A stretch of 64,000 nucleotides of DNA. Source: Rhodoblastus acidophilus. GTDB lineage: Bacteria > Pseudomonadota > Alphaproteobacteria > Rhizobiales > Beijerinckiaceae. The translations under genes were made by a program, and so were the position numbers. The stretch is taken from assembly GCF_900187365.1 (NCBI RefSeq), contig NZ_FYDG01000002.1, positions 186,001 through 250,000 of the forward strand, given 5' to 3'. Shown in pieces: positions 29,007 through 43,916 of this stretch; position 1 is the first letter of the stretch, and every line of letters begins with the position of its first letter. A model generated the notes under the pieces. The model made no database searches and was not told the DNA's origin. It saw only the letters and a list, made by a program, of their open reading frames with translations.

Positions 29007-29034
29007 TTGCTCTGTAGTCATTTTTGGTTATATT
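29007..29034 (+). promoter_or_regulatory. Promoter of parDE
   Basis: TTGCTC (29007-29012), then 16 bp, then TATATT (29029-29034), about 30 bp before the parD start codon. An AGGAG Shine-Dalgarno is at 29052-29056. The AT-rich patch stands out from its surroundings. Autoregulation by ParD at this site would be usual for the family. Confidence 0.5.
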
Positions 29035-29065
29035 GAATACAGGCTGGTCGCTAGGAGATGCTACA

Positions 29066-29320
29066 ATGGCTCGCACCACAACAATGACGGTCAGGGTCAG
29101 CGGGGCGCTCAGCGACTTCGTCGCCGCCAACGTCGGCGAGACCGGCTCCTACGAAAACGTCAGCGAGTACATCCGTGACCTCATCCGCCGCGACAAGGAG
29201 CGGGCGGAGAAGGAAGCCTTCGACCTGCTGAAGGCGGAATTGACGCGCGCCTTCGCTGCTCCAGAGCAGTCTTACCAGCCGCTTACAGCAGCGGACGTCA
29301 TTGCGCGCAACAAGGTCTAG
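29066..29320 (+). CDS. parD: ParD-family antitoxin (type II)
   Basis: An 84-residue ribbon-helix-helix antitoxin. The beta strand TTTMTVRVSGALSDFV and helices around GSYENVSEYIRDLIRRDKER are the ParD/CC2985 signature. The C-terminal part (LTRAFAAPEQSYQPLTAADV) would wrap the toxin. It precedes parE by 6 bp. The start at ATG 29066 follows AGGAG. Confidence 0.9.
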   Translation: MARTTTMTVRVSGALSDFVAANVGETGSYENVSEYIRDLIRRDKERAEKEAFDLLKAELTRAFAAPEQSYQPLTAADVIARNKV

Positions 29321-29326
29321 CGCCCG

Positions 29327-29641
29327 ATGGCCTCTGTTCGCGTCCAGGAGGCGGCATCCCACCGCCTGGATGACATTTACCGCACCACACGCGACCGATG
29401 GGGCGTCGACCAAGCCGACTGCTACATCAACGGCCTGTTCGAAGCCTTCGGCAAGATCGAGACGCGTGAGGCGGCGTCACGCCCGGTCCCTGCCGAGTTC
29501 GGCGTCGAGGGCTATGTTTTCCGGTACGAAAGGCATTTCGTATATTGGCGTAGGCTCGGCAATGGCGACATTGGCGTCGTGACGATCCTGCATGAGCGCA
29601 TGCACCAGATCGACCGTTTTCGCGATGATTTCGCAGTGTGA
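29327..29641 (+). CDS. parE: RelE/ParE-family toxin
   Basis: A 104-residue ParE-like toxin. It has the small alpha-beta fold with EAASHRLDDIYRTTRDRWG, a central helix, then VEGYVFRYERHFVYWRRL and VTILHERMHQIDRFRDDF. ParE toxins usually poison DNA gyrase. The pair sits at the right end of the tRNA-Ser island and may stabilise it. Confidence 0.9.
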   Translation: MASVRVQEAASHRLDDIYRTTRDRWGVDQADCYINGLFEAFGKIETREAASRPVPAEFGVEGYVFRYERHFVYWRRLGNGDIGVVTILHERMHQIDRFRDDFAV

Positions 29642-32778: not shown

Positions 32779-33753
32779 ATGACACTCTTGCGCAGGTCGA
32801 TGAGGCGTCTGGTGAAAACATTGTTTTGGATACAGACGGGCGCATGCGGCGGCGAGTCCCTGGCGATCCTCTCGGCGGAAGCGCCAAGCCTCGAGGCTTT
32901 GCTGACCTCCCATGACCTGGAAATGCTGTGGCATCCGTCGCTGTCTTGCGCGCCGATGAAGCGTTTCGACGAATTGGTCGCGGCCATCGCATCGGGGACG
33001 CAACGCCTCGACATTCTGTGCGTCGAGGGCAGCCTGATCACCGCGCCGCGCGGCTCCGGCCTGTTCGATTCCTACAACGGCCGCGCCCGCATCGACATCG
33101 TCCGCGCGCTGGCGGCGCAAGCCGGGCATGTGGTCGCCATGGGAACCTGCGCCAGTTTCGGAGGCGTCCACGCCGCGAGCCCAAACCCCTCGGATTGCCT
33201 GGGCCTGCAATTCGACAAGGACAAGCCCGGCGGCCTGCTGCCCGCGGATTGGCGCTCCGGCGCCAGCCTGCCGGTCATCAACGTGTCCGGTTGCCCCGCG
33301 CATCCCCACGCCATGACCCAGACGCTGGCCGCGCTGGCGAGCGGCATGAGCCTGCCGCTCGATGCGTTGAACCGGCCCCAAGCCTTTTTCAGCACGCTGG
33401 TGCATCAAGGCTGCTCCCGCAACGAATACCACGAATACAATATCGAGGACGCCCACCTCGGCGGGCCGGCGTGCATGTTCTTCAACCTCGGCTGCCAGGG
33501 GCCGACGACCCAGGCCGTATGCAACGACGACCTCTGGAACGGGGTGAGCAGCAAGACCCGGGCCGGCGTCCCGTGCTTCGGCTGCACCGCGCCGAATTTT
33601 CCGCGCGAGGCCGATCTGTTCGCCACCGCCAAGGTGGGCGACATTCCGCTGCGCCTGCCGGCCGGCGTCGAGCGCGCCCGCTATATGGCTTATAAAAACC
33701 TGGCGCGCGCCGCCGCCCCGCCCCGCCTCAAGACCAGGAAAACGGACGTCTGA
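32779..33753 (+). CDS. [NiFe] hydrogenase small subunit, group 2 (sensory/uptake type)
   Basis: A 324-residue iron-sulfur subunit. It lacks a Tat signal peptide, so the enzyme stays in the cytoplasm as in group 2 hydrogenases. WIQTGACGGESLAILSAEAP aligns with the group 2 start WLQGGACSGNT-type, where only one of the usual two proximal-cluster cysteines is kept (C23; position 26 is Glu). Further ligands are seen in GTCASFGG, SGCPAHP, VHQGCSRNEYHEYN, FFNLGCQGPTTQAVCN and VPCFGCTAP. An alternative start is ATG 32800. It is 1 bp upstream of the large-subunit gene. Confidence 0.9.
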   Translation: MTLLRRSMRRLVKTLFWIQTGACGGESLAILSAEAPSLEALLTSHDLEMLWHPSLSCAPMKRFDELVAAIASGTQRLDILCVEGSLITAPRGSGLFDSYNGRARIDIVRALAAQAGHVVAMGTCASFGGVHAASPNPSDCLGLQFDKDKPGGLLPADWRSGASLPVINVSGCPAHPHAMTQTLAALASGMSLPLDALNRPQAFFSTLVHQGCSRNEYHEYNIEDAHLGGPACMFFNLGCQGPTTQAVCNDDLWNGVSSKTRAGVPCFGCTAPNFPREADLFATAKVGDIPLRLPAGVERARYMAYKNLARAAAPPRLKTRKTDV

Positions 33754-33754
33754 C

Positions 33755-35260
33755 ATGGCGAGGGTCCAGCTCAATCTCAATCTCAACCGCGTCGAGGGCG
33801 ACCTCGAAATCGGCGTGACGCTCGAAGACGGCGTCGTGGTCGAGGCCCGGACGGTCGGGACCATGTATCGCGGCTTCGAGCAGATCATGATCGGCCGCGC
33901 CGCGCGCGACGGGCTGGTGATCACCCCGCGCGTCTGCGGCATTTGCGGCACGGCCCACCTCTACGCCGCGACGCTGGCGCTGGAGCACGCCTGGGGCGTG
34001 ACGCCGCCGCCCCATGCGGTGCGCATCCGCAATCTCTGCCTGCTGGCGGAGGGGCTGCAGAACGATCTCCGCCAGACCCTGCTGTTCTTCGCCCCGGATT
34101 TCTGCAACCCGCGTTATCAGAACGAGCCGTGGTTCGACGAAGCCTTGGCCGGTTTCGAGCCGTTTCGCGGCGCCTTCTATCTGGAAACGCTCGCCGCCAC
34201 GCGCGAGGCGGTGAAGATCATCGCCCATTTCGGCGGCCAATGGCCACATTCCTCCTATATGGCGCCAGGGGGCGTCACCCTGCCGGCGGATATGCGGAAA
34301 CTGATCGCCTGCCGCGCCCTGCTCGACGGTTTTCAACGCTTTTACGAGACGCGGGTGATCGGCGCGCCGCTCGACGCCTGGCTGGCGCTCGACACGGCCC
34401 AGGACTATTTCGCCTTGCTGGAAACGCCCGCCCATGCGCGCAGCGCGCTCGGCCTGCTGTCGCGCGCGGCGCGGGCGCTGGATCTGCACAAGACCGCCGC
34501 GGGCGTCGGCGCCCTGCTGAGCTTCGGCGCCTGGCGCGATCCCGAAAACCCCGACGCCCCGCTGTTGGCCGCCGGATTTTACGACGGCGCGGCGACGGCG
34601 CCGCTCGACCAGGGCCGGATCAACGAGCATGTGCGTCATTCCTGGTTCCGCCCTTACGAGGGGGGGCGGCATCCGTGGAAGGGCGAAACCATCCCCAATT
34701 ACGCCCCCGACGGCGACCGCTACAGCTGGGCCAAGGCGCCGCGCTACGGCGACGCCGTGGTGCAGACCGGGCCGCTCGCCGAACTGCTGATCGGCGGCGA
34801 CGCGCTGGTCGCCTCGCTCTACGCCGAGGAGGGCGGCGGCGCGTGGTTGCGCCAGTTCGCCCGCGTGCGCCGGGTCGCCCACGAACTTCGTTTCGCGCGG
34901 CAAATGCTGGATCAGCTCGCGGGTGATCTGTCCGGGCCGCATTTCCTGCCGCCGGCGCACGAAGGCGACGGCGAGGGCCATGGCCTGACCATGGCCGCGC
35001 GCGGCGCGCTCGGCCACTGGATTCGCGTCAAGGACGGCGTCATCGAGAAATACCAGATCATCACGCCCACCGCCTGGAACGCCTCGCCCCGCGACAGCGC
35101 CGGCCAGCCCGGCCATTGGGAGCAGAGCCTGGTGGGCGTGCGCGTCAAAGATCCCGACGATCCCATCGAGATCGGCCATGTCATCCGCTCGCACGATCCG
35201 TGTCTGGTCTGCACCGTCCACATGCTGGACAGCGGCCGCAAGCTGCATTTTGGCGTTTGA
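33755..35260 (+). CDS. [NiFe] hydrogenase large subunit, group 2
   Basis: A 501-residue catalytic subunit. Nickel-iron ligands are in the N-terminal RVCGICGTAH (C61, C64) and the C-terminal DPCLVCTVH (C483, C486). A further 12 residues follow the final His, so the protein has a removable C-terminal peptide, in contrast to classical regulatory HupV/HoxC subunits that lack it. Segments NRVEGDLEI and GGQWPHSSYMAPGGV are typical. With the small subunit it would split or sense H2 in the cytoplasm. No electron-transfer, membrane or other hyp genes are adjacent. Confidence 0.92.
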   Translation: MARVQLNLNLNRVEGDLEIGVTLEDGVVVEARTVGTMYRGFEQIMIGRAARDGLVITPRVCGICGTAHLYAATLALEHAWGVTPPPHAVRIRNLCLLAEGLQNDLRQTLLFFAPDFCNPRYQNEPWFDEALAGFEPFRGAFYLETLAATREAVKIIAHFGGQWPHSSYMAPGGVTLPADMRKLIACRALLDGFQRFYETRVIGAPLDAWLALDTAQDYFALLETPAHARSALGLLSRAARALDLHKTAAGVGALLSFGAWRDPENPDAPLLAAGFYDGAATAPLDQGRINEHVRHSWFRPYEGGRHPWKGETIPNYAPDGDRYSWAKAPRYGDAVVQTGPLAELLIGGDALVASLYAEEGGGAWLRQFARVRRVAHELRFARQMLDQLAGDLSGPHFLPPAHEGDGEGHGLTMAARGALGHWIRVKDGVIEKYQIITPTAWNASPRDSAGQPGHWEQSLVGVRVKDPDDPIEIGHVIRSHDPCLVCTVHMLDSGRKLHFGV

Positions 35261-35267
35261 GGCGGCC

Positions 35268-35726
35268 ATGATCCGCCGCCGCATCCTGTGTTTCGGCAAT
35301 CCGCTGCACGGCGACGACGGGGTCGGCGCGGCGGTTTTCGCGGCGCTTTCGGCGCGCAAACCGCCGGAAGGGCTGGAGGTGATCGAGGCCGGAACGCCCG
35401 GCCCCGCCGCGCTCGCGCTGTTCGAGGACTGCGACGAGGCTATCGTCGTCGACGCGCTCGCGCCCGCGGGCTCGCCCGGCCGCATCGCGCAACTGGCGCC
35501 GGAAGGGATCGACGCCGAAACCACGCCGGCGCCGCACGGCATGGGGCTAGGCTATATCTTGCGGGCGCTAAACGCCCTGCCCGGCCCCCGCCCCGAGATC
35601 CGCATCATCGGGATCGAGGCGGCGAGCCACAGGCCGTTCCAGCCGGGCCTTTCCCCGGCCGTGGCGGCGGCCGCCGGCGAGGTCGCGCGCCTGCTCGGCC
35701 CTTGTTTCGAGGACGGTCATGGCTGA
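35268..35726 (+). CDS. Hydrogenase maturation endopeptidase (HupD/HoxW type)
   Basis: A 152-residue member of the HycI/HupD peptidase family, which trims the C-terminal extension of the large subunit after nickel insertion. The start ILCFGNPLHGDDGVG carries the first metal-binding Asp. EAGTPGPAALALFEDCDEAIVVDA has the middle acidic residue region, and APHGMGLGYILRAL the conserved His. It begins 7 bp after the large-subunit stop and overlaps the next gene by 8 bp, so it clearly serves this hydrogenase. Confidence 0.9.
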   Translation: MIRRRILCFGNPLHGDDGVGAAVFAALSARKPPEGLEVIEAGTPGPAALALFEDCDEAIVVDALAPAGSPGRIAQLAPEGIDAETTPAPHGMGLGYILRALNALPGPRPEIRIIGIEAASHRPFQPGLSPAVAAAAGEVARLLGPCFEDGHG

Positions 35727-38430
35727 CCCCGCCCTGCACGAAGAACTGGAGCGGCTGCGCGTCGAGGTCGAGGCGCTGCGGCTCGCCAATGCGGCGATCC
35801 AGGATCAGATGAGCGCCGGCGCGGCGGGCGCCGACGCCCTGTTGCGCGCCGTGGAGCGACAGGCGGAAGACTTGCGCGCCGCCAACCTGCGCCAGAGCGG
35901 CCAGGCCGCCTTCACCCGGCGGGTGATGGACACCTCGGGAGCGCTGATGATCGTGCTCGACGCCGAGGGCCGCATCCTCCAGGTCAACCGGCGGTTCCAC
36001 GACGAACTCGCCGCCGCCGAAGGCGAGGTCGCCGGGCGCGCGCTCGACGACTGGCTGCCGCCGGACGAGCGCGCCGCGCTGGAGCGACGCCTGATCAAGC
36101 CGCCCTGGACGGTCTATTCGCACCTGTTCGAGCTGATGCGCGTCGCCGGCGCCTATGAGGCGGAGCATCATTTGCTCGGCGCGGACGGCGCCTATCGCGA
36201 TTATTGGATCGAGGCCAGCCCGCAGACCGATCCCCAGGGCAAGGAGGAAGGCGCCGTGGTCTGCGCCACCGACATCACCGCCCTGAACCTGCAGCGCGAC
36301 GCCCTGGAGGTGCGCGAGCGGCACCTGCGCGAGGCGCAGCGCATCGCGCAAATCGGCCGATGGGAGCTTGACCTCGCCACCAATCGGATCCTGGACTGGT
36401 CCGACGAATTGCGCAAAACCTGCGAGCTGTCGCACCCGCTGGCCTCGGGGCGGGATTTTGTGGCGCTGGCGCATCCCGACGACCGCGACGAACTGGTTCG
36501 CGCGTTTCGCGCCGCCGTCAAGGCGCGGGCTCCGTTCGCCCACGCCTGCCGGCTGCGTTTCGGCGACGGCCGCATCAAATGGATCGACTTGCGCGGCGTG
36601 ATGCACGCGCACGCCGGGCGCGTGCTCCGCGTCTCCGGCACCATGCAGGACATCACCGCGCGGCGGCAGGCCGACGAGGAGATCAGCCTCGCCGCGCGCG
36701 TGTTCGACAACAGCCTCAACGGCGTCGTCATCACCGACGCCAAAACCCGGATTCTCAGGATCAACCGCGCCTTCACCCGCATCCTCGGCTACCAGCACGA
36801 AGAACTCGTCGGCAAGACGACCGCCGTGCTGAAATCCGACCGCCATGACGCCACCTTCTACCGGGCCCTGTGGCGCGAGCTGAAAAACGCCGGAGAATGG
36901 CAGGGCGAAATCTGGGACCGCCGCAAGGACGGCGGGGTCACGCCGCTGTGGCAGAGCATTTCCGCCGTGCGCGATTCCCGCGGGGACGTCATCAATTACA
37001 TCGGCGTGTTCTACGACCTGAGCGACCAGAAGCGCGCCGCCGCCCACATCCACCATCTCGCCTATTACGACGCCTTGACCGACCTGCCCAACCGCCAGTC
37101 CTTCAATGACAGCTGCGAACAGGCGCTCAAGCTGGCGCGGCGCGACCGGACCAATCTGGCGGTGCTGTTCCTCGATCTCGACCGCTTCAAATATGTCAAC
37201 GACACTTTGGGCCATCCGGTCGGCGATGAACTGTTGCGCGGCGTGGCGCGGCGGATCAAGCGCGCCCTGCGCCAAAGCGACATTATCGCGCGGCTGGGCG
37301 GCGATGAATTCATCGTGCTGGCGCAAGGCGTGGCGCACCCGGACGCCGCCGCCCGGATCGCCGAAAAAATCATTCACACGCTGGCAAAACCTTTCAGCAT
37401 CGACGGCCACCGGCTTGAAATCCGCGTGTCCGTTGGCATCAGCTGCTTCCCGCACGACGGCGCCGATGCGGCGACGCTGATCAAGAACGCCGATCTGGCC
37501 CTCTACAAGGCCAAGGAGGAAGGGCGCGACCAGTTCCGCTTCTTCGAGGCCAGCCTAATGGCGAAGGCGCGTGAAAAACTGTTTCTGGAGGCGGAATTGC
37601 GCGCGGCGTTGGAGCGCGGCGAGCTTTTTCTGCACTATCAGCCGCAGTTCTCGCTCGCCGACGGGCGCCTGGTGGGGTCCGAAGCGCTGGCGCGCTGGCG
37701 GCATGCCGAACGCGGGATGATTCCGCCGGACAAGTTCATCGCCATCGCCGAGGAATGCGGCCTGATCGTGCCGCTCGGGGAATGGGCCTTGCGCGCGGCC
37801 TGCCGCCAGGGCGAGGAATGGCGTCGGGCGGGCCTGGGACCGCATCGCATCGCCGTCAACATGTCCGGGCTTCAACTCGAGCGCGCCGATTTTGTCGCCA
37901 CGGTGGCGCGCATCCTCGCCGAGACCGGCCTGCCGCCGGACTGGCTGGAGCTTGAGGTCACCGAAACCTACGTCATGCGCCAGCCCGAAAAGAGCGCCCG
38001 CGCGCTCGAAGGTCTTCGCGCCCTCGGGATCGCCTTGTCGATCGACGATTTCGGCGCGGGACAGTCGTCGCTCGCTTATCTCAAACGCCTGCCTGTGCAG
38101 TCGCTGAAGATCGATCGCTCCTTCATCACCGATTTGCCGTTCGGCGAGAACGAAGCCGCCATCACCCGCGCCATCATCGCGCTCGGCCACAGCCTGCATC
38201 TGAAAGTGCTGGCCGAAGGCGTCGAAACGCCCGCCCAGGCCGATTTCCTGCGAGGGCTCGGTTGCGATCAGGCCCAGGGCTACTTTTACAGCCGTCCGGT
38301 CGACGTCGAAAACATGCAGAAGATCTTGCGCCATATGGACGCCGCGCCGGGCGCCGGATCGGACCAGACGGAGCCGAGCCGAGGGAACGATGACCGTCGC
38401 CGCGCGCCAAGGTCGAGCGCCCCCTGCTAG
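35719..38430 (+). CDS. PAS-PAS-PAS-GGDEF-EAL cyclic-di-GMP enzyme
   Basis: A 903-residue soluble protein. It has an N-terminal coiled coil (1-60), PAS 1 (65-190), PAS 2 of PAS_3 type (205-315), PAS 3 (325-440), GGDEF (450-605) and EAL (620-870). The cyclase motif GGDEF (527-531) is intact and has an inhibitory-site RQSD at 518-521. The phosphodiesterase has EAL (655-657), NMSGLQL, EVTET, DDFGAG (776 onward), LKIDRSF and AEGVETPAQ, so both activities look possible. It overlaps the hydrogenase protease by 8 bp and ends the hydrogenase operon. That suggests a hydrogen signal is turned into a c-di-GMP change. Confidence 0.95.
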   Translation: MADPALHEELERLRVEVEALRLANAAIQDQMSAGAAGADALLRAVERQAEDLRAANLRQSGQAAFTRRVMDTSGALMIVLDAEGRILQVNRRFHDELAAAEGEVAGRALDDWLPPDERAALERRLIKPPWTVYSHLFELMRVAGAYEAEHHLLGADGAYRDYWIEASPQTDPQGKEEGAVVCATDITALNLQRDALEVRERHLREAQRIAQIGRWELDLATNRILDWSDELRKTCELSHPLASGRDFVALAHPDDRDELVRAFRAAVKARAPFAHACRLRFGDGRIKWIDLRGVMHAHAGRVLRVSGTMQDITARRQADEEISLAARVFDNSLNGVVITDAKTRILRINRAFTRILGYQHEELVGKTTAVLKSDRHDATFYRALWRELKNAGEWQGEIWDRRKDGGVTPLWQSISAVRDSRGDVINYIGVFYDLSDQKRAAAHIHHLAYYDALTDLPNRQSFNDSCEQALKLARRDRTNLAVLFLDLDRFKYVNDTLGHPVGDELLRGVARRIKRALRQSDIIARLGGDEFIVLAQGVAHPDAAARIAEKIIHTLAKPFSIDGHRLEIRVSVGISCFPHDGADAATLIKNADLALYKAKEEGRDQFRFFEASLMAKAREKLFLEAELRAALERGELFLHYQPQFSLADGRLVGSEALARWRHAERGMIPPDKFIAIAEECGLIVPLGEWALRAACRQGEEWRRAGLGPHRIAVNMSGLQLERADFVATVARILAETGLPPDWLELEVTETYVMRQPEKSARALEGLRALGIALSIDDFGAGQSSLAYLKRLPVQSLKIDRSFITDLPFGENEAAITRAIIALGHSLHLKVLAEGVETPAQADFLRGLGCDQAQGYFYSRPVDVENMQKILRHMDAAPGAGSDQTEPSRGNDDRRRAPRSSAPC

Positions 38431-40644: not shown

Positions 40645-43600
40645 CTATCGTTCCGCTTCCGACAGCGGCGCGACGATGCAGCAGACCAGGCCTTCCGGCC
40701 GGAACTCCATTTCGACGCGCGCCTCGCTGATGCTCCGTTCGATCAGGCGCAGGCCCGAACCGCGGCGGCTGGGCTCTCGCACAGGCGGACCGCCCTGTTC
40801 CTTCCAGGTGAGTTCGAGCATGCGCAAGCCGTCGCTCAGGTCGCTGGCGCGCCAGCTCAGCAGCACGCGTCCTTCGGGCGCGCTGAGCGCGCCATGCTTG
40901 GCGGCGTTGGTGCCGAGCTCGTGGATGGCGAGGCCGAGCGGCGTCGCCAGCGCCGGCGACAGGATGACCGGCGGCCCCGACAACTGCACCGCCGCGCGGC
41001 CGCCGCCGAGATAGGGCTGCAACTGGTCGCGCGCCACATTGTCGAGACTGGCGCCGCGCCATTCGCTCTCGACCAGCAGCGCATGGGTGCGGCCCAGCGC
41101 CGACAGGCGTTCGTCGAGCGCGGCGAGCGCGGCGGGATTGGCGCCGCTGTCGCGCAAGGTCTGCCGGACGATCGCCTGCGCCACCGCCAGGGTGTTTTTC
41201 ACGCGATGCGCCAGCTCGTCGAGCAACAGGCGATGACGCGCCGTCCAGGCCTCCTCGGACTCGAGCCGATCCGTGACGTCGACGAAGGTGGCGACCACGC
41301 CCTCGATCTTGTCGTCCAGCGTGCGATAGGGCCGCAGCCGGATCATGAACCAGCGCCCCCCCGTGGTGCGGACGGTACGTTCGAGCGGAATCAGATCGGC
41401 CAGCACCCGCTGCGCGTCGGCGACAAGGTCCGGGTATTCGAGCCGATGGGTGAAATCCGTGACGGGCCGGCCCTCGTCGCCGGCGACGATGTTGAACAGC
41501 TCCGCCATGCGCGGCGTGAACCGCTGGATGCGCAGGGTCGAGTCCAGAAACATCGTGCTGACGTCGGTCGCGCTCATCAGGTTCTGCAAGTCGTTGTGCG
41601 CGCGCGACACCAGTTCGAGCTTGAGTTTCAGCTCGGTGTTGAGCGTCTGAAATTCCTCGTTGATCGACTGCAGCTCCTCCTTGCTGGTTTCCAGCTCCTC
41701 GGCGGTGGAGCGATATTCCTCGTTGATCGACTGCAATTCCTCGTTGGCGGCGCGCAGCTCCTCGGTCGCCGCCTCATATTGCTCGCGCGTGGCGCGCAGC
41801 GCGGTGCGGGTCGCGTGCAATTCCTCGCGCAATTGCGCGACCACGGCCGACTGTTCGGAGGACAGGCCGGCGTCGGACGCCGCCGGCTCGACCTCGCCGC
41901 CTTCGAGAAAGATCGCCATGGCACCGCGGGCGCCGTCGTCGCGGCGGGCCGGGCGGACGTTGAGCACAACCGCCCGGGGCTTGGCGTCGAACTGCACGGG
42001 GATGGGCGGGGTGACCGTGGATTGGTTCGACTCGAAGGCGCGCCGCAGCGCCGCGCGCAGTTCGAGCCGCAATTCCGGCCGCACGATCTCCGCCGCATCC
42101 GCGGTCATCGGGCCGCTCGGATGCAGCACGAACTTGCCGCAGGTCTCCGACAGATTGACGATGCAATGGGTCTCGTCCACCAGCATGCTCGGCGGCGCGA
42201 TGTCTTCCAGCGCCTGCCGGTGCATCGAGGAATTCACCGTGGGCGTCGCGGGCGGCAGGCGCGCCACATTGGGCGTTTCCGGGCCGCGCGCGGGGGTGAA
42301 CAGGCGCGGCGGCGACAGCATCTTGTCGCGGGGGCGGTCGAGCGCCTGGAAGATGCGCGATTCCCGGTCGATCGAGGTGAACAGGCCGGAGGGACTGTCG
42401 GCGCTTTCCGACGCGCCCAGGAACAGGAAGCCGTTAGGCAGCAGAGCGTAATGCAGCACGGAGCAGACCTGTTTCTGCAGGTCGCGGTCGAGATAGATCA
42501 GCAGGTTGCGGCAGGAAATCAGGTTGATGCGCGAGAACGGCGGGTCTTTCAACAGGCTGTGCGCGGCGAAGACGACGAGGTCGCGCACCTCGCGGCGGAT
42601 GCGGTATTGATCGCCCTCGCGCATGAAGAACCGGCGCAGCCTGTCCTCGGACACGTCGGTGGCGATGGCCGTGGGGTAGCGCCCCTCGCGGGCGACGGCG
42701 AGGGCCTGCTCGTCGAGGTCGGTGGCGAAAATCTGAATGTCCGGCCGCGCCTCGCGCCGCGCCGCCTCCTCCAGCAGCAGAATGGCGAGACTATACGCCT
42801 CCTCGCCGGTGGCGCAGGCGGGCGCCCAGATCCGGATCGCCTGGTCGCGGCCGGGCGCATCGAACACCAGCGGGATCACCTCGCTGGCGAGCGCGGCGAA
42901 GGCGGCGGGGTCGCGGAAAAAGCTGGTGACGGAAATCAGCAGATCGTTGAACAGCGCGCCGATTTCGTCCGGCCGGTCGCTCAGATAGGCGAGATAATCC
43001 TCCATGCGCGCGGTCTGCGCCACTTGCATCCGCCGGGCGATGCGGCGCAGCAGAGTGGCGCGCTTGTAGCCCGAGAAATCCTGACCCAGCCGCGCGCGCA
43101 ACTGCGCGAGGATGCGGCGCAAAGCGGCTTCGTCGGCCATCTCGCATTGCCGCGCCGCCCGCGGCCTCGACCGCGCCAGTTCGGCGAGGCAGCGCGCGAG
43201 GCCGGAAATCGGCGCCACGAAATCGACGCCGCTGGCGATGGCCGCGCGCGGCATGGAGCCGAATTCCGCCTCGTTGGGGTCCTGCGCCAGCGCGATCCCG
43301 CCATTTTCCCGGATGGCGCGCACGCCCAGCGCGCCGTCCGAACCGCCGCCGCTCAGCACGATGGCGAAACCATCGCCGTGCTGGTCGGCCAGCGACCGGA
43401 AGAATTCGTCGACCGGCGACCTCTGGCCGCGCGGCTCGATGAAGGCGGCCGGCGCGATTTCCTGGTCGGTGATCAGCAGCCGGCGGTCGGGGGGGAGGAC
43501 GTAGATGCAATTGGCGGTGATCGGCTTGGGTTCGTTGACCGGGGCGACAGGCATGGCGGTGCGCCGCGCCAGGATCGCCGACAGTTCGCCGCCATGGCCG

Positions 43601-43752
43601 GGATCGAGATCAACCAGAACGATATAGGCGAGGTCGAGATCGGCGGGAAGCGCCTCGAACAGGCGTTGCAAGGCTTCGGCCCCGCCCGCCGAGGCGCCGA
43701 CGCCGACGACGGGGATGCGTGGAAGCGAGCGGCTTTCACCATTCTGGGCCAT
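40645..43752 (-). CDS. CheB-CheR-PAS-HWE histidine kinase fusion
   Basis: About 1035 residues. The CheB methylesterase domain (15-195) has VGVGASAGGAEAL, DPGHGGELSAI and LSGGGSDGALG. The CheR domain (about 210-460) has RRIARRMQ, SVTSFFRDP, WAPACATGEEAYSLAI and ISCRNLLIY. A long coiled coil (about 625-720, EELRAANEELQSINEE) leads to a PAS_10 domain (about 725-830). An HWE kinase core follows, with DELAHRVKNTLAVAQAIVRQ and AIHELGTNAAKHGALS. It starts at ATG 43752, after rejecting 31 extra upstream codons. Such fusions link receptor-like methylation chemistry to a kinase output. It is divergent from the CheB gene at 43917. Confidence 0.93.
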   Translation of the reverse strand: MAQNGESRSLPRIPVVGVGASAGGAEALQRLFEALPADLDLAYIVLVDLDPGHGGELSAILARRTAMPVAPVNEPKPITANCIYVLPPDRRLLITDQEIAPAAFIEPRGQRSPVDEFFRSLADQHGDGFAIVLSGGGSDGALGVRAIRENGGIALAQDPNEAEFGSMPRAAIASGVDFVAPISGLARCLAELARSRPRAARQCEMADEAALRRILAQLRARLGQDFSGYKRATLLRRIARRMQVAQTARMEDYLAYLSDRPDEIGALFNDLLISVTSFFRDPAAFAALASEVIPLVFDAPGRDQAIRIWAPACATGEEAYSLAILLLEEAARREARPDIQIFATDLDEQALAVAREGRYPTAIATDVSEDRLRRFFMREGDQYRIRREVRDLVVFAAHSLLKDPPFSRINLISCRNLLIYLDRDLQKQVCSVLHYALLPNGFLFLGASESADSPSGLFTSIDRESRIFQALDRPRDKMLSPPRLFTPARGPETPNVARLPPATPTVNSSMHRQALEDIAPPSMLVDETHCIVNLSETCGKFVLHPSGPMTADAAEIVRPELRLELRAALRRAFESNQSTVTPPIPVQFDAKPRAVVLNVRPARRDDGARGAMAIFLEGGEVEPAASDAGLSSEQSAVVAQLREELHATRTALRATREQYEAATEELRAANEELQSINEEYRSTAEELETSKEELQSINEEFQTLNTELKLKLELVSRAHNDLQNLMSATDVSTMFLDSTLRIQRFTPRMAELFNIVAGDEGRPVTDFTHRLEYPDLVADAQRVLADLIPLERTVRTTGGRWFMIRLRPYRTLDDKIEGVVATFVDVTDRLESEEAWTARHRLLLDELAHRVKNTLAVAQAIVRQTLRDSGANPAALAALDERLSALGRTHALLVESEWRGASLDNVARDQLQPYLGGGRAAVQLSGPPVILSPALATPLGLAIHELGTNAAKHGALSAPEGRVLLSWRASDLSDGLRMLELTWKEQGGPPVREPSRRGSGLRLIERSISEARVEMEFRPEGLVCCIVAPLSEAER

Positions 43753-43916
43753 GACCTGGCCTCCTTGACGAGTCGAATTCTGGATGGATCTCTTTCCGCC
43801 CAATGTCGCGCAATTTTGTGCAGTTTGACCATAGCGCAAGTACAACCGTTTGAAATAAAAGCCGAACGGCGCCCCATTTCGCCCTGTCGCGCGTTGGGAG
43901 ACGAGGGAGCGCCGTC

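Follow-up and report, generated by a model that had tools for sequence, protein, structure and literature searches.

The window analyzed here, a stretch of 64,000 nucleotides from Rhodoblastus acidophilus (contig NZ_FYDG01000002.1), holds an operon of four genes in which the two subunits of a [NiFe] hydrogenase and a maturation endopeptidase are followed by a protein with PAS, GGDEF, and EAL domains (Table 1), and which probably encodes a cytosolic H2 sensor of a published class, [NiFe] hydrogenase group 2c, controlling cyclic di-GMP (c-di-GMP). An earlier note made from the sequence alone had described four genes on one strand with gaps of 1 and 7 bp and an overlap of 8 bp; their coordinates, strands, and spacing are all as claimed, and the identities it gave to the products are borne out by Pfam and NCBIfam, which assign all four to families. 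The large subunit carries both of the Ni-Fe motifs that had been reported (RVCGIC and DPCLVCTVH), and the small subunit, as the note had it, shows no Tat signal by eye (no prediction tool was run). The start of the small subunit is more likely the GTG at 32812 than the ATG at 32779, due to a GAGG just upstream and to the alignable part of the homologues beginning there. The fourth protein likewise proved to have three PAS domains and intact GGDEF, RxxD site, and EAL catalytic motifs, and is by its motifs a predicted bifunctional GGDEF-EAL enzyme. Among the best 25 of 42 NCBIfam families no full-length equivalog passed its cut-off for this protein, though domain models did; as the best full-length score, below the cut-off, belongs to the phosphodiesterase DibA, our guess is that a phosphodiesterase output is a little likelier than a cyclase.

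Table 1 Features of the hydrogenase operon, in positions of the window
Feature	Position	Strand	Basis
Small subunit (hupS-like)	32812..33753	+	Pfam Oxidored_q6 and NiFe_hyd_SSU_C; listed ORF from 32779
Glu codon at the fourth proximal-cluster ligand place (CGGE)	32854..32856	+	Small-subunit alignment, 28 group 2c and 44 group 2b
Large subunit, group 2c type	33755..35260	+	Pfam NiFeSe_Hases, alignment, tree
L2 cysteines (CLVC) to end of C-terminal tail past CTVH	35201..35257	+	Alignment
Hydrogenase maturation endopeptidase	35268..35726	+	Pfam HycI, TIGR00072
PAS-PAS-PAS-GGDEF-EAL protein, 903 aa	35719..38430	+	Pfam, motifs
N-module: 66-residue helix and first PAS	35734..36318	+	Alignment, predicted model, HMM searches
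GGDEF domain with RxxD site	37060..37533	+	Pfam, motifs
EAL domain	37591..38298	+	Pfam, motifs

Relatives of the large subunit were collected in a scan with one genome per species, and the best 80 of 276, which were kept, form two non-overlapping sets, 31 at 47–83% identity and 49 at 36–41%. In all 49 of the more distant sequences the L2 histidine (DPCMVCTVH) is the last residue, as in group 2b, while the window large subunit runs on for 12 residues beyond it, and a tail past CLVCTVH is found in each of the 28 (of 31) closer relatives with a readable C-terminus, matching the presence of a protease gene. This tail is expected to be the substrate cut by the protease of the operon. A tree of 52 large-subunit sequences places the window in a clade of 30 rows (support 98/96) apart from the group 2a (100/99), the group 2b (100/100), and group 1, including the uptake enzymes of its own genome. 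Long branches lead to L039, L035, and the group 2b row of the source genome, and the join of the group 2a and the window clade is poorly supported (82/63).

The window clade fits HydDB group 2c, a label that, in a tree without a HydDB-typed 2c reference, rests on the L2 motif and on the inclusion of Methylobacter, genomes of which are reported to hold group 2c (PMC12810054). The entry of HydDB consulted (2016, PMC5037454) names the class ‘Diguanylate cyclase-linked (putative)’ and adds that it ‘May sense H2 and regulate processes through cyclic di-GMP production’. The window shares with this class a group 2 enzyme whose L2 closes with CLVCTVH and, linked to it, a GGDEF-EAL gene (diguanylate cyclase/phosphodiesterase); it differs in the L2 itself (SHDPCLVCTVH versus SFDxCLVCTVH), and its clade includes histidine-kinase-linked and Rieske-bearing loci, which that description does not mention. 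The same F-to-H change has been reported for Thiomargarita, in an enzyme typed there as most consistent with 2c. HucE, the NifU-like and Rieske partner that marks group 2a, was not found alongside the window operon. The class reportedly originates with Greening et al. 2015/2016.

The small subunits differ at places that we take, from solved [NiFe] enzymes, to bind the proximal and medial clusters. The fourth proximal place is aspartate in 24 and glutamate in four of the 28 group 2c sequences (glutamate in the window), and the medial place is lysine in all 28, the window included, while both places are cysteine in all 44 group 2b small subunits. Huc, a group 2a enzyme and the nearest with solved structures, has asparagine at the proximal, lysine at the medial, and glutamine at the distal place. 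As the proximal and medial residues differ from those of 2b, and the proximal residue also from that of Huc, the 2c enzymes probably have an electron relay of their own. Like group 2b, the window has isoleucine and phenylalanine (Ile63 and Phe111) at two positions that form gas-channel bottlenecks in the regulatory hydrogenase (RH); position 111 is phenylalanine in 16 and methionine in 14 of 30 2c rows and phenylalanine in all 15 of the 2b rows. Huc carries three [3Fe-4S] clusters and reduces menaquinone (PMC10017518), RH carries three [4Fe-4S] clusters (PMC5665086), and the partner of Huc is the Rieske-type HucE (PMC6883350), which, unlike anything in the window operon, has a NifU-like domain. 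The group 2a loci examined also resemble the window in the tail and the protease gene.

Gene order was followed in a set of 34 loci (the window, 31 further loci, L121 from genome G308, and L125 from an Ideonella dechloratans plasmid), of which 31 were readable, with three (L013, L015, and L018) ending too early at contig ends. The four-gene order, which the earlier note had proposed looking for in other genomes, recurs in many Pseudomonadota and in one SAR324 genome. The gene behind the protease has in 29 of the 31 loci the same N-terminal module (in the SAR324 locus L023 it stands behind a small Rieske gene), which comprises the first ~200 residues of the fourth protein, a long helix and a PAS domain, and for which a predicted model gives a single helix of 66 residues followed by a PAS-like fold (mean pLDDT 85.6, pTM 0.60). 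Module hidden Markov model (HMM) scores are 158–260 bits in the whole-frame 2c partners, and L025 and L042 possess the module in two broken frames. The order on the Ideonella dechloratans plasmid (L125 6035-11736; 709 kb) comes from a complete circular record. In Grimontia celer (L022 1710-7007), the one locus scanned for them, hypD, an AIR-synthase-type (hypE-like) gene, hupE, and hypF precede the 2c genes, and maturation genes may thus travel with the sensor. The kinase of the Planctomycetota locus L039 (7923-9455), with a helix-like N-terminus and no PAS, may mark a minimal contact element.

The module HMM, trained on 2c partners alone, also matched a nearby gene at 39 of the 49 group 2b loci, starting 52–258 nt past hupV in 32 of the 39 and 0.5–6.5 kb away in the rest. 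Among the 18 matches listed for the source genome, the window protein ranks first (237 bits) and a 450-aa kinase, encoded ~15 kb away from the remaining hup genes, ranks second (46.6 bits), with the next PAS proteins at or below 24.3 bits. In a survey of the order (297 genomes), a [NiFe] small-subunit gene lies within 25 kb of 33 of the 39 matches that reach 40 bits, a line set post hoc (31 of 37 once the two 2c loci are excluded), and of none of the 35 matches of 32–40 bits; of the six remaining strong matches, five come from genomes whose small-subunit match is on a different contig and one from a genome where none was found. By its helix and PAS and its tie to hydrogenase loci, the module resembles the input modules of HoxJ/HupT, with the qualification that part of this likeness is that of PAS domains at large. 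A profile comparison of the module with HoxJ/HupT-type N-termini gave a probability of 98.6% (score 104, 158 columns including the helix); as this comparison alone discriminates HoxJ from generic PAS weakly, the genome-wide ranking is relied upon instead.

Outputs behind the module are of two kinds. Pfam confirmed every readable output, with GGDEF-EAL in 14 loci (the window, L014, L016, L017, L021, L027, L031, L032, L033, L036, L037, L038, L121, and L125) and a histidine kinase in 12 (L020, L022, L023, L024, L026, L028, L029, L030, L034, L040, L041, and L064), ten of which have a receiver domain (not L022 or L041); L039 is an additional, 13th kinase. The outputs of L019 (gene cut by the contig end), L025, and L042 (both with broken frames) were unreadable. 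The earlier note had expected the GGDEF-EAL gene to be conserved beside the hydrogenase, and had regarded its absence in relatives, or a grouping of the large subunit with respiratory uptake enzymes, as speaking against a sensor. Neither was found in full: what is conserved is a partner gene with the input module, while the output is not. The fewest output changes on the large-subunit tree number three across 25 labeled rows, with L019 and L025 unlabeled, or two when L039 is omitted. In the module tree, the Roseateles and Paucibacter kinases group with the alpha- and betaproteobacterial GGDEF-EAL rows (95/95) and not with the Vibrionaceae kinases, and therefore the output changed there behind a retained module. 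GGDEF is present in all 13 of the proteins checked (the 14 without L121) and RxxD in ten (not L014, L036, or L038). In L021 EVL replaces EAL; L017, L021, and L037 have LEISE in place of LExTE and gave no match to the Asn pattern of the second loop, and L125 likewise matched neither pattern. Given these degenerate catalytic motifs, some relatives may have lost one of the two activities.

A Rieske [2Fe-2S] domain above the Pfam cut-off is present in eight of the 31 loci, belonging to three lineages, and is fused N-terminally to the module in four Methylobacter, two Neptuniibacter, and L121, and is a separate gene in the SAR324 locus L023. The predicted model of the fusion is weak (pLDDT 74.9, pTM 0.42), though the expected helices and strands are present. 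Within the stretches examined, neither the window nor the alphaproteobacterial, betaproteobacterial, and Vibrionaceae loci show a plausible gene with a Rieske motif. The Rieske-bearing loci suggest electron transfer to the partner, and in some relatives the signal probably passes as electrons via the Rieske domain; as the group 2a Huc also pairs with a Rieske-type protein, an electron acceptor may have been incorporated into the sensor.

In the mechanism proposed, the protease of the operon would mature the heterodimer, which would oxidize H2, and the helix and PAS at the N-terminus of the fourth protein would read the state of the hydrogenase and pass the signal to the GGDEF and EAL domains, so shifting the c-di-GMP balance; in the Rieske-free window the coupling would occur by direct redox or by conformation. 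Gene order, module conservation, HoxJ/HupT likeness, output exchange, and the intact motifs of the window protein are seen in the sequences themselves, and we infer the contact between hydrogenase and module, the dependence on H2, and which of the two activities dominates. A wider proposal, that the helix-PAS module is portable and couples H2 oxidation to any output (kinase or c-di-GMP enzyme), in several lineages electrically through a Rieske domain between hydrogenase and module, is more tentative and falls a little short of an even chance.

Several points weigh against the sensor and its shared module. Two of the readable loci are exceptions, as L035 has no module gene in the 2.9 kb past the protease and the partner in L039 is a kinase with a similar-looking helix and no PAS, and ten of the 49 group 2b loci have no module match. 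The correlation of module with large-subunit distances (Mantel r 0.90, 22 rows, none of 2000 permutations as high), in itself a point in favor, could be produced by common descent alone. The profile comparison separates poorly, since its one control, an alignment of the module with the third PAS of the same protein, scored nearly alongside (97.8%, score 80, 117 columns), and generic PAS likeness makes up a large part of the HoxJ/HupT match. The choice of 40 bits after the fact, and the scoring of at most ten first-look candidates per genome, temper the survey of the order. The well-supported branches of the module tree force just two output changes, and the 2c system is sparse, occurring in two of 297 genomes of the order and two of 398 of the phylum (the source genome in both), and in one of 48 in the class of G308.

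The same genes could encode a catalytic uptake hydrogenase, with the co-transcribed GGDEF-EAL protein answering some other PAS signal (O2 or redox) and making no contact with the hydrogenase. PAS domains bind many ligands, and the 2c enzymes have a C-terminal tail, a protease, and a medial lysine like the catalytic group 2a Huc. We nonetheless regard an uptake enzyme as unlikely: no electron-transfer or respiratory partner adjoins the operon in the ORF list or the flank scan, as the first reading of the sequence had held, and the nearest Rieske match on the contig lies ~43 kb away; further, as outputs change the module still varies together with the hydrogenase, and it recurs next to the 2b sensors. 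Chance neighborhood or a genome artifact, which a sparse and patchy system might bring to mind, is refuted by the recurrence of the gene order in several classes and in a complete circular plasmid record, and its probability is negligible. Within the H2-sensor interpretation, it is possible, though rather doubtful, that the partner accepts the electrons itself, in which case the output would report electron flow from H2 and not H2 binding as such. The fused or adjacent Rieske domains in three lineages favor this variant, as does the medial lysine in place of cysteine, which suggests a relay of higher potential than the three [4Fe-4S] clusters described for RH; the window and the alphaproteobacterial, betaproteobacterial, and Vibrionaceae loci, without a Rieske motif in the stretches examined, count against it. 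We know of no cofactor for the PAS domain of the module, which also disfavors the variant.

A c-di-GMP-linked H2 sensor is the best available interpretation of the operon, yet the class has already been proposed in print for group 2c in the HydDB text cited above. A literature search turned up no experimental test of the 2c idea, and nothing in it touched on the module, the switching of outputs, or the Rieske fusions, a weak negative given that most subscription papers, and the original survey, were outside its coverage. The comparison made here adds the input module common to these loci, the change of outputs behind it, the Rieske fusions, and the tail and ligand features that set these enzymes apart from 2b, in which the sequence ends at the last histidine, both cluster places are cysteine, and the output is a kinase, despite a common helix-PAS input module and a common lack of adjacent respiratory genes. 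Signal transfer in regulatory hydrogenases is unsettled, and a 2015 spectroscopy paper refers to a ‘yet unknown cytoplasmic electron acceptor’ (PMC5665086); with a module that is conserved while its outputs vary, and with Rieske fusions found in nature, electron transfer and conformational coupling can be tested against each other. If the interpretation holds, H2 would set c-di-GMP, for example H2 from nitrogenase, as the genome has seven NifH-family matches above the cut-off (a family that also takes in NifH relatives) and two matches to photosynthetic reaction-centre genes. Attachment and motility are commonly under c-di-GMP control, and H2 could thereby be linked to such behaviors.

The genes flanking the operon are unrelated to it by Pfam scan, including a ParE-type toxin, a PHB-depolymerase-like esterase, an RHH regulator, a pyridine nucleotide-disulphide oxidoreductase, and a CheB-CheR-PAS-HWE kinase fusion (40648-43845, reverse strand), and three flanking ORFs had no match. 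A small Pfam-negative ORF precedes the toxin gene (29024-29641), and the two are likely a type II toxin-antitoxin pair. A search for sigma-70 promoters found none, terminator predictions (four, versus 5.2 in shuffled sequences) gave no signal, and the eight matches to a -24/-12 pattern in the window occur at about the frequency of chance, with none at the operon.

Apart from the window pair, the genome encodes a group 2b pair and two enzymes of group 1. The second group 1 uptake hydrogenase (L124 6534-9523) lies on the same contig, ~6.5–9.5 kb past the end of the window, with the large subunit on the reverse and the small subunit on the forward strand, an unusual divergent arrangement that is either genuine or due to faulty assembly. 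It is adjoined by a GGDEF-EAL-like gene (L124 4434-6521).

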